Source of the DNA: Alphaproteobacteria bacterium
GTDB lineage: Bacteria; Pseudomonadota; Alphaproteobacteria; Geminicoccales; Geminicoccaceae
Direction of reading: 5' to 3'
Assembly (NCBI GenBank): GCA_009908425.1
Contig: JAAAPF010000089.1
Location: 1-34,710, forward strand
DNA length: 34,710 bases
The notes under the pieces: model-generated
The model's database searches: none
Seen by the model: only the letters and a program-made list of their open reading frames with translations
Told to the model about the DNA's origin: nothing
Made by a program: the position numbers and the translations under genes
Part shown: positions 4,846 through 32,689 of the stretch, one piece after another
Numbering within the stretch: the stretch's first letter is position 1
Layout of the letters: each line of letters opens with the position of its first letter

Positions 4846-7800
4846 CTACACCACGTCGCGGACCGCCGCCACCCCCGCCAGCACCGCCACGTCCGGGCGC
4901 CGCGCCGGCGGCAACAGGGCGGTGTCGGGGAGGTCGATCAGCACGCGTTCGCCCGCGGCCTCGCCGGGCACGCTCAAGCGCACCCGCGCCGCCCCCTTCG
5001 CCTCGCCGGCGAGCAGGGGGATCAGCCGGTCCACCGCCTCGCCACCGGCGAGTTCGATCTCGACCAGCGAGCGCTCGTCGCCGAGCGCCGCGCTCAACGG
5101 CTCGATGTCGCGCGCGACGAGGCGGACGTCCTCGCCGTCGAGCCGGCCGTCGGCGTGGACCAGCAGCGGTTCGGTGCGGTCCAACAACTCGCGCACCTGG
5201 CCGAGCAGATCGCCGTAGACGGTGATTTCGCCCTGACCGCTCGGGTCCGACAGCGTCACGAACGCGAAGCGGCCGCGCGCGCCGGTGCGCTCCTGGCGGG
5301 CCACCGCGATGCCGGCCAGCTTCAAGACGCGCGGGCCGTCGCCGCCGGCGACCAGCGGTGCGACCTCGGCGAGCGGCACGGTGCCGAGACGCTGAAGAGG
5401 GCGGCGGTAGCCGTCGAGCGGATGCGCCGAGAGGAAGAACCCGAGCGCCTCGTGCTCCTGTTCGAGCACCTGGAGCATCGCCGCCTCGCCGCGCTCGGTG
5501 ATCGCCGGCTTCGGGATCGCGACGTCGGCGCCGAGCCCGTCGAACAGGCCGGCCTGACCGCCCTCGCGGGCGTCGACGACGGCCTGGCCGTAGCGCAGCG
5601 CCCCGTCGACGGCGTCGAGATGCGCCGCCCGGGACGGCCCGAAGCCGTCGAGCGCGCCGGCGCGGATCAAGCCTTCCAACAGCCGCCGGTTGAGTACGCG
5701 CGGACCGACGCGGCCGACCAGATCGAAGATGTCGGTGAACGGGCCGCCGGCGCGCCGCTCGGCGACCAGGCTGGTCATCGCCTGCTCACCGACCCCTTTG
5801 ATGGCGGCGAGCGCGAAGCGGACGGCACCGGCGTCGTCGCCGTCGGGCAGCCGCTCGATGGCGAACAGCACCTCGGAGCGGTTCACGTCCGGCGGCAGCA
5901 GCGCGATGCCGTGCTGGATCATCTCCTCGCGGGCGTTGGCCAGCCGGGCGTGGTTGCCGCGGTCCATCGTCATCGACGCCGCGAAGAAGGCGAGCGGGTA
6001 TTTCGCCTTCAGATAGGCCGTCTGGTAGGCCAAGAGCGCGTAGGCCGCCGCGTGGCTCTTGTTGAAGCCGTAGGAGGCGAACTTGGCGACTTGCTCGAAG
6101 ATGGTGGTGGCGAGGCCCTCGTCGAGCCCTTTCGCGATCGCGCCGTCGATGAACACCCCGCGCTGCTGGTTCATCTCCGTCTGGATCTTCTTGCCCATGG
6201 CCCGGCGCAGGAGATCGGCGGCGCCCAGCGAGTAGCCCGCGAGCTCCTGGGCGATCCGCATCACCTGTTCCTGGTAGATGATGACGCCGTTGGTCTCCTC
6301 CAGGATCGGCCGCAGCTTGTCGTGCAGGTATTCCGGATGCTCACGGCCGTGCTTGACGGCGATGTAGCGCGGGATGTTGTCCATCGGGCCCGGCCGGTAG
6401 AGCGACACCATGGCGATGATGTCCTCGAAGCAGTCGGGCTTGAGTTCCTTCAAGGCCGCCTTCATCCCGCCGGATTCCAGCTGGAACACGCCGGTGGTCT
6501 CGGCCCGGCTCATCAGCGCGTAGGGCGCGGGATCGTCGAGCGGCAGCTGGTCGAGCTCGAGCGGCACGCCGAGCGCCTCGTTGACGAAGGCCTCGGCCTT
6601 CTCGAGCAGCGTGAGCGTGGTGAGGCCGAGGAAGTCGAATTTGACGAGGCCCACCTTCTCCACCGCCTTCATGTCGAACTGGGTCACCGGCATCGGCGAG
6701 CGCGGGTCGCGGTAGAGCGGCACCAGCGCGTCGAGCGGACGGTCGCCGATGACGACGCCGGCGGCGTGGGTCGAGGCGTGCCGGGGCAGCCCTTCCAGCT
6801 TGCGCGCCGTCGCCAGGAGCTGGGCCACCTGCTCGTCGGCCCGGCGCTCCTCGTCCAGTCGCGGCTCCAGCTCCAGCGCCTGCTCGATCGTCGGCGGGTT
6901 CGCCGGATTGTGGGGGATCAACTTCGAGATGCGGTCGACCTGGCCGTAGGGCATCCCCATCACCCGGCCGACGTCGCGCACCACCGCCCGCGCCTGCAGG
7001 CGGCCGAAGGTGATGATGTGGGCGACCTTGTCGTCGCCGTACTTGTCCCGGACGTAGTCGATGACCTCGTCGCGCCGATCCTGGCAGAAGTCGATGTCGA
7101 AGTCCGGCATCGACACCCGCTCCGGGTTCAAGAACCGCTCGAACAGGAGGCCGAAGCGCAGGGGATCGAGGTCGGTGATCTCGAGCGACCAGGCGACCAC
7201 CGAGCCGGCGCCGGAGCCGCGGCCGGGGCCGACCGGAATGCCGCGGCCCTTGGCCCAGCGGATGAAGTCGGAGACGATCAGGAAATAGCCCGGGAACTGC
7301 ATGTGCACGATGATCCCGAGCTCGAAGTCGAGCCGGTCGCGGTAGCGCTGCAGCACCGCCTCGCGATCGTCGTCATCCCCGAGCCGGGAGACGACGTGGC
7401 GCTCCAGGCGGCGCTCCAGACCCGCCGCCGCCTGCACCCGCAGCTCCTCGGCCTCGTCGCGGCCCGCGCCGACCTCGTAGGGCGGCAGGATCGGATCGCG
7501 CGGGGAAATCATGAAGGCGCAACGCCGTGCCACCACCACCGTGTTGGCGACAGCCTCCGGCAGATCCGCGAACAGCTCGGCCATCTCGACGGCGGTCTTC
7601 AAGCGGTGCTCGGGGCTGGTGCGCGGCCGGTCCTCCTCGATCAGCCGGCGGCCGTGGGCGATGCAGGCGAGCACGTCCTGGGCCTCGTGCTCGTCGCCGC
7701 CGACGAAGCGGACGTCGTTGGTGGCGACCAGCGGCAGCTCGCGGGCGTAGGCCTGATCGACGAACCAGTCCTCGGTCCGGGCCTCGGCGTCGCCGCCGGT

Positions 7801-31286: not shown

Positions 31287-31571
31287 TCAGCCCTCGCGGG
31301 CGGTGGTCGGATCGATCGTCTTGCGCACGGGCGTGATCGTCGTGGCCGGAAACCCGCTGAGTTCGGCGTGCTTGCGGATCACCGCCTCGTCGGTGGCGAG
31401 ATAGACGCAGAACGTCTTGTCGCCCGCGACGAAGCTCTCGACCCATTGGATATCGGGCGCGAGCTGGGCCAGCGCGGCGTTGGAGGTCGCGGCCGCGTCG
31501 CGGAGTTGCTCGCGTTCGAACGTCCCGACCGCCGGGATGTCACGCTCGATGATGAACTTCTGCAGGGTCAT
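31287..31571 (-). CDS. DUF4242 family small protein
   Basis: A 94-residue soluble protein. MTLQKFIIERDIPAVGTFE at the start and WVESFVAGDKTFCVYLATDEAVIRKHAELSGFPATTITPVRKTIDPT match the DUF4242 family, ferredoxin-like alpha/beta proteins. A Streptomyces member (SCO4226) binds nickel; whether that holds here cannot be told. The ATG at 31569-31571 was chosen because it restores the family N-terminus, while an upstream in-frame start adds an unrelated Arg-rich stretch. It lies between the phasin terminator and the YeeE/YedE pair, all on the minus strand. Confidence 0.85.
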   Translation of the reverse strand: MTLQKFIIERDIPAVGTFEREQLRDAAATSNAALAQLAPDIQWVESFVAGDKTFCVYLATDEAVIRKHAELSGFPATTITPVRKTIDPTTAREG

Positions 31572-31704: not shown

Positions 31705-32118
31705 TCAGGCGGCCAGCTTCTTCATCTCCTCGAGGTTGCTCAAGACGCACTGGTTGACCACGCGTAGCGCGTCGGCCTGCGCCTTGGCCACGATCTCCAT
31801 CAACTCGCGAGTGTCGCTGACCGCCTGCTCGTAGGCCGACTTGGCGTCGTCGACCTGCCCCTGCACGCTGGCGGCGTCGGCCTGCTGCGGCTTCATGTAG
31901 CTGCCGGCCTTGGCGTTGAAGTCGCTCATGCGGGCCTGCACGATCTCGTTCTGGCGCTGGGCGAAGCTGCGGGCGCCGTCGGCGAGGATCTGACCGGCGT
32001 TGGTCATCGCTTCGAGGTTGCGGCGCTGCGCCGCCATCACGGCCTCGGCGTCCGCCGGCTTCATCATCGGCATCATCGACATGTCGAACTTCGGCAGTTC
32101 GTAACCCTGGGTGGCCAT
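31705..32118 (-). CDS. Phasin family protein (polyhydroxyalkanoate granule-associated)
   Basis: A 137-residue phasin-type protein, an amphipathic helical protein that coats PHA granules and limits their coalescence. The N-terminus is Met-rich and lipophilic (LPKFDMSMMPMM), followed by a long helical region with AMTNAGQILADGARSFAQRQ and AYEQAVSDTRELMEIVAKAQADAL, typical of PF09361. The ATG at 32116-32118 has a GGAGGGG ribosome-binding site. Upstream is a good promoter with two operator-like boxes, and downstream a terminator, so it is probably monocistronic. No PHA synthase gene is in the window. Confidence 0.9.
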   Translation of the reverse strand: MATQGYELPKFDMSMMPMMKPADAEAVMAAQRRNLEAMTNAGQILADGARSFAQRQNEIVQARMSDFNAKAGSYMKPQQADAASVQGQVDDAKSAYEQAVSDTRELMEIVAKAQADALRVVNQCVLSNLEEMKKLAA

Positions 32119-32142
32119 GGTCACCCCTCCATCCGGTGTTTG

Positions 32143-32152
32143 CTGCACTGCA
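32143..32152. promoter_or_regulatory. Candidate PhaR operator, promoter-proximal
   Basis: CTGCACTGCA fits CTGC-N3-GCA. It sits within TTGCTGCACTGCAA, an imperfect dyad, just downstream of the phasin -10 element, where a bound repressor would block initiation. TGC-rich sites of this kind are known for the PHA-responsive repressor PhaR in alphaproteobacteria. Confidence 0.5.
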
Positions 32153-32180
32153 ACATAGAGACCGGCATGGGGACCCTCAA
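32152..32180 (-). promoter_or_regulatory. Sigma-70-like promoter of the phasin gene
   Basis: On the minus strand TTGAGG (32175-32180) and TATGTT (32152-32157) are spaced by 17 nt. Each matches four of six consensus positions, unusually good for this GC-rich window. The leader to the phasin ATG would be about 25-30 nt. Two CTGC-N3-GCA boxes flank it. Confidence 0.6.
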
Positions 32181-32191
32181 GGTCCGAATTG

Positions 32192-32201
32192 CTGCGTTGC
32201 A
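32192..32201. promoter_or_regulatory. Candidate PhaR operator, distal
   Basis: CTGCGTTGCA is a second CTGC-N3-GCA box, inside TTGCTGCGTTGCA, 49 bp from the proximal box in the same orientation and upstream of the phasin -35. The pair could allow cooperative or looped repression; the 49-bp spacing is close to 4.7 helical turns. Confidence 0.45.
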
Positions 32202-32261
32202 CAAAAGGCGGACCAGGCTCGACGGCGTCGCCTGACGGCGGACGGGGATCCTCGCCCCCGC

Positions 32262-32389: not shown

Positions 32390-32689
32390 ATGGCGCGTCG
32401 GTGCGAGTTGACCGGCAAGGGCGTGCTCGTCGGCAACAACGTGAGCCACGCCAACAACAAGACCAAGCGGCGCTATCTGCCCAACATTCAGAGCCGACGG
32501 CTCTACAGCGAGTCGCTGGGCGAAACGGTGCGGCTGAAGATCGCGCTCAACACCCTGCGCACGATCGACAAGCACGGCGGGCTGGACGGCTACCTGCTGC
32601 GGACCAAGGACACGGCGTTGCCGGAGCCGCTGCGTCGGATGAAGAAGCGGGTGGCCGAGCGCCAGGGCGGCGCCGACGGCGCGGTCTGA
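32390..32689 (+). CDS. rpmB: 50S ribosomal protein L28
   Basis: A 99-residue large-subunit protein. [28 protein letters not shown] is the L28 signature, and [21 protein letters not shown] continues it. At about 99 residues it is the longer alphaproteobacterial form, with a C-terminal extension beyond the roughly 78-residue E. coli protein. A GGAAGGA ribosome-binding site precedes the ATG. The VUT-type transporter gene follows after 13 nt, so the two are probably co-transcribed. Confidence 0.98.

Follow-up and report, generated by a model that had tools for sequence, protein, structure and literature searches.

Paired palindromic boxes at a phasin promoter in an alphaproteobacterial genome as predicted PhaR operators

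Introduction

In the available portions of the papers on three bacterial species, the regulator PhaR is described as binding palindromes of the kind considered here and as a repressor of phasin genes that moves off the DNA to the PHA granule (PMC12542648; PMC6201568; PMC12849132). At Ralstonia eutropha phaP1, the two sites BS1 and BS2 carry the palindrome YTKNTGCRNYGCANMAR, one placed immediately before the -35 and the other around the transcription start, according to the sections available for that study (PMC12849132). For PhaR of Sinorhizobium meliloti (AniA), the corresponding sections report two palindromic sites per promoter at phaP1 and phaP2 (PMC12542648). A consensus, TGCRNYGCASMA, was deduced for Bradyrhizobium diazoefficiens from DNase I footprints together with further promoters, and phaP1 of that species has two such sites (PMC6201568; PMC10888616; text available in part).

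Here we analyze a 34,710-nt stretch of DNA (hereafter, the window), which is the whole of one contig (C280) of a 3.36-Mb alphaproteobacterial genome assembled in 356 contigs. A first-pass annotation, made from the sequence alone, had noted two similar boxes around the promoter of a phasin gene and had proposed them as PhaR operators. We find the observation to be right and the interpretation, which is partly supported, to be largely right. Judged from the sequence, the two boxes very probably are operators of the single PhaR of this genome, which is predicted to repress the phasin gene until PHA granules form.

Results

Two palindromic boxes bracket the putative promoter of a phasin gene

The gene behind the boxes encodes a Phasin_2 (phaP-type) protein of 137 aa on the minus strand (31705-32118, start ATG at 32118). 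Its annotation as a phasin is borne out by matches above the curated cut-offs for both PF09361 (54.2 bits, cut-off 24.9) and TIGR01841 (35.0 bits, cut-off 30.2). The reading frame remains open beyond this ATG, upstream through both boxes; we placed the start at 32118 because of a Shine-Dalgarno-like GGAGGGG, read from the sequence (32124-32130, minus strand), and because of the starts of relatives. Divergent from the phasin gene lies rpmB (32390-32689). Beside the phasin gene, on the minus strand, is a gene for a small SCO4226-like protein of a nickel-responsive family (31287-31571). An uninformative contig scan with the phasin as query returned a single match, to Bartonella.

The two boxes were confirmed as a pair 49 bp apart in the same orientation: on the plus strand, TTGCTGCACTGCA occupies 32140-32152 and TTGCTGCGTTGCA occupies 32189-32201. 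The motif, first written as CTGC-N3-GCA, is better described as a palindrome, TGC-RNY-GCA with arms, and this core is present with the published arms in both boxes. The proximal box (32140-32156, no strand assigned), with the core TGCACTGCA at 32144-32152, matches the 17-bp palindrome YTKNTGCRNYGCANMAR with one mismatch, and its minus-strand 12-mer at 32141-32152 fits the consensus TGCRNYGCASMA. The distal box (32189-32205, likewise without strand), with the core TGCGTTGCA at 32193-32201, matches YTKNTGCRNYGCANMAR exactly and fits TGCRNYGCASMA on both strands. The proposed likeness to known operators was thus upheld, as the boxes fit the published PhaR sites of Bradyrhizobium and S. meliloti and the Ralstonia palindrome.

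On the minus strand, a candidate -35 (TTGAGG, 32175-32180) and a candidate -10 (TATGTT, 32152-32157) are separated by 17 bp and may form the phasin promoter, which would be a weak one. A generic sigma-70 scan did not recover this promoter (0 found), and we base the assignment on the sequence and on the matching layout in other genomes, where a TTG likewise follows the distal core and a similar arrangement surrounds the -10. The proximal box overlaps the putative -10 and start region, and the putative -35 starts 12 nt past the end of the distal core and 8 nt past its 17-bp palindrome. The boxes therefore bracket TTGAGG-17-TATGTT as first described, one over the start region and the other upstream of the -35, at the probable promoter of a gene for a PHA granule protein.

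The boxes and their layout recur upstream of phasin genes

The motif is concentrated before phasin genes in other genomes of the class as well. A search of 60 genomes, counting that of the window, gave 56 phasin matches, all of which were examined. For the best match per genome (30 loci, the locus in the window included and one locus with only 162 bp of upstream sequence), the core was found within 350 bp upstream in 26/30 loci, with two or more copies in 22/30. These 30 loci hold 49 core matches in 10.3 kb of upstream sequence versus 8 in their remaining 87.5 kb. Each of six scrambled motifs gave zero or one upstream match. The remaining 26 phasin matches have the core in 21 cases and two or more copies in 14. 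In a class-wide sample of 32 loci from phaR-bearing genomes, taken from the top of the match table downward with one locus per genome (G037, already examined, and G129 were left out), the core occurs within 500 bp upstream in 27 loci and at least twice in 23. Overall, 81 of 96 phasin upstream regions, which include 8 loci from genomes without a phaR match, have the core, and 64 have two or more.

Core pairs in these 96 regions fall into two spacing classes. Fifty neighboring core pairs are 41-64 bp apart, most commonly 52 or 57-59 bp, and 48 of these wide pairs have, by our reading, a TTG starting 8-12 nt past the distal core, as expected of a -35; many of the 48 also have a TAT-rich -10 that is covered or followed by the proximal box. 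The other class comprises 11 core pairs that are 17-30 bp apart. Both classes are represented in the genome of the window, by the 49-bp pair described above and by a 19-bp pair on contig C216.

The distal box had also been suggested as one that could affect rpmB. This box lies ~185 bp upstream of the rpmB start, and in one other genome, G037, rpmB likewise diverges from a phasin gene and cores lie between the two. However, among the 28 of 30 searched genomes in which rpmB was found, the core occurs within 400 bp upstream in only three, namely in the window, in G037, where rpmB has the same phasin neighbor, and in G006, where the core is single. The other 25 loci, one of which has only 89 bp of upstream sequence, are without the core. 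The boxes follow phasins, and additional regulation of rpmB through the distal box is very improbable.

The layout is consistent with repression of the phasin gene

By analogy with published work on other species, from which we infer binding, repression and release by PHA, PhaR would occupy both boxes when granules are absent, probably as dimers. The bound protein would cover the -10 and start region together with the edge of the -35 that faces upstream, and would keep the phasin gene from being transcribed. Once PHA granules form, PhaR would shift to the polymer, allowing the phasin to be made and to coat the granule. The layout fits such steric blocking of the promoter, which PhaR may exert in this organism. 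Alternatively, PhaR might bind the boxes but activate or merely fine-tune the phasin gene, given that it is reported to be an activator of phaP3 in Ralstonia, where BS1 and BS2, however, lie clearly upstream of the promoter (PMC12849132, as far as the available text goes). In the window, one box is on the -10 and start region, as at the repressed phaP1, and we consider activation or fine-tuning here very unlikely.

The genome encodes one PhaR

Absence of phaR had been named as evidence that would count against the operator proposal, and phaR is present. A PF07879 search for the DNA-binding domain of PhaR gave a single match in the genome, in a protein that has both PF07879 and PF05233 and scores 140 bits against TIGR01848 (cut-off 109.45). 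The preceding gene, named by eye, is presumably that of ribosomal protein L9, and the other end of the phaR contig bears a phaC gene cut by the contig end. Boxes had been expected at phaR and phaC too, although sites at these genes do not define a PhaR operator, an expectation that was not borne out for phaR, since the gap upstream of the gene has no core (one other core is present in this contig, at 5957), and hardly for phaC. Four phaC matches were found: two loci are without the core, one breaks off at the contig end, and in the fourth a weak core precedes a candidate start by 20-30 bp, which leaves one weak case among the three phaC genes with upstream sequence.

We also noted boxes in genomes without a PF07879 match. 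Of nine such genomes examined, six retain boxes, at 9/10 loci (both loci of G029, and 7/8 loci of G094, G097, G216, G234 and G255), and three, G043, G049 and G050, have none (0/3 loci, one locus each). G029 comes from the 60-genome search; the other eight belong to the 19 of 240 class-sample genomes that have a phasin but no phaR match. Of these eight, G043, G049 and G050 were taken from the 60-genome phasin search, and the other five from among the best places in the class-wide phasin search. One further phasin match (G255:C104) starts at the contig end and was left out. Some of the six box-bearing genomes are fragmented or incomplete drafts from which phaR may have been lost in assembly, but the stated completeness is 100% for G097 and 96% for G216, which makes this explanation a guess. 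Persistence of the boxes in 6/9 genomes without a phaR domain match might suggest that a different regulator, also controlling phasins, binds them. Set against this are the identity of the motif with published PhaR sites of three species and the presence of the phaR domain in the genome of the window and in 45/60 genomes searched, this one counted, which make a regulator other than PhaR highly improbable.

The full motif is enriched at phasin genes of the genome

The exact 13-base sequence TTGCTGCNNTGCA has five matches in the 3.36-Mb genome: the two boxes in the window, one upstream of a gene for a marginal phasin-domain protein on contig C198, and two in one inverted repeat. The latter copies (C208:35517-35548) were rejected as an operator, as they are the arms of a repeat between convergent genes that is terminator-like rather than operator-like. 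When up to two mismatches were allowed, TTGCTGCNNTGCA was not enriched genome-wide (319+294 matches versus 519+528 for the reversed control); therefore, information comes from the full motif alone. The Bradyrhizobium consensus TGCRNYGCASMA, on the other hand, gave 41 strand matches genome-wide versus 20 for the reversed control, which hand merging of overlapping strands reduced to 36 distinct places.

Six of these 36 places are directly upstream of phasin-domain genes, where 0.019 would be expected (Poisson 6e-14): two at the gene in the window, one on C176, one on C198 and two on C216. Four of the five phasin-domain genes of the genome thus have a consensus place upstream, although one of the four, on C198, is marginal (24.9 bits with neighbors and 22.7 in a second run, cut-off 24.9). 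The fifth gene (C216:4226-4453) has no core nearby. Genes around the 36 places were called with a crude script, which treated the boxes in the window as coding via a too-early start. These counts agree with the predicted enrichment before phaP genes. The opposing possibility raised at the outset, that the motif is equally frequent at random sites, is contradicted by the enrichment of the full motif.

The C198 protein (L055, 776-1483), whose gene has a PhaR-type box just upstream, ends in a helix-hairpin-helix domain. Its C-terminal part resembles the PhaH phasin and L21-type tails, at scores below the NCBIfam cut-offs. The protein might link granules to nucleic acid.

Within the window, the pattern as first read, CTGCNNTGCA, was found twice versus 1.10 expected, a count reached in 31/100 shuffles, and the bare core TGCRNYGCA six times versus 4.26 expected, reached in 27/100 shuffles. 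With at most one mismatch, the 17-bp palindrome YTKNTGCRNYGCANMAR matched the two boxes only (0.12 expected), and two matches were obtained in 0/100 shuffles. In the window, the short patterns alone are not significant, whereas the full palindrome is. That the boxes are TGC-rich sequence arising by chance, for which the unremarkable short patterns might speak, has a negligible probability given the shuffles with two full palindromes (0/100) and the enrichment in this and other genomes.

Candidate targets beyond phasins

A PhaR-type core (C304:7067-7078) lies 48 bp before the start of an acetate-CoA-ligase-alpha-like gene. The first 410 residues of the 902-aa open frame match the acetate-CoA ligase alpha part (TIGR02717), with a score for this partial query of 435 bits, below the cut-off of 567. 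Among 13 of the 30 loci fetched, each the best match of a different genome, seven have the core 48-72 bp upstream (0.48 expected), and six of 12 do when the genome of the window is set aside. In the available text of one paper, SMc04095 (putative acyl-CoA synthetase) and SMa0150 (fatty acid CoA ligase) are among the proteins lowered without PhaR, and the available part of its site table lists neither (PMC12542648). An acetate-CoA-ligase-like target was not found in the portions available of another (PMC6201568).

We also observed a PhaR-type box before an acyl-CoA carboxyltransferase gene (C315:3159-3170) and two cores before a MaoC/phosphate acetyltransferase gene (C329:1298-1329). For the latter gene, one core was found in G010 and none in the other six full-length-type loci; overall, 3/17 loci examined (30 fetched) have the core, making the case for this gene as a PhaR target weak.

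Discussion

We read the two boxes as PhaR operators because they fit published sites, PhaR is present, the motif is concentrated at phasin genes and the layout recurs. Somewhat more speculatively, the wide layout, with boxes mostly 46-60 bp apart, could be a phasin architecture shared by the class in which PhaR bridges the boxes in a LacI-like manner, and PhaR could also control the acetate-CoA-ligase-like gene; we put this combined proposal forward tentatively, as somewhat short of an even chance. The comparison with LacI has already been made for Ralstonia phaP1 (PMC12849132, in the text available). If true, PhaR control of the acetate-CoA-ligase-like gene would tie acyl-CoA supply to granule status. 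A consensus and a layout are now available from 96 phasin upstream regions, and the acetate-CoA-ligase-like gene is named as an extra candidate target.

Compared with the described systems, as documented in the available portions of the papers, the wide layout is that of Ralstonia phaP1, and the boxes in the window share both its palindrome and the positions of its sites; for phaP1 itself, a further site within the gene is predicted (PMC12849132). The S. meliloti phaP1 and phaP2 sites have the same core and A/T-rich arms but are spaced 18 and 28 bp apart by their table positions, in contrast to 49 bp here (PMC12542648). The two Bradyrhizobium phaP1 sites, which share the consensus with the boxes in the window, are also closer together, flanking the -35 at a distance of 6 bp on each side and listed at -101 and -72, that is, 29 bp apart (PMC6201568; PMC10888616). 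It is the narrow class of pairs (17-30 bp) that resembles these S. meliloti and Bradyrhizobium phasin promoters. On this evidence, the PhaR code described in the literature for phasin control extends to this lineage, with no current knowledge overturned, and a PhaR operator pair at a phasin promoter, which is well supported here, is of an ordinary, known kind.
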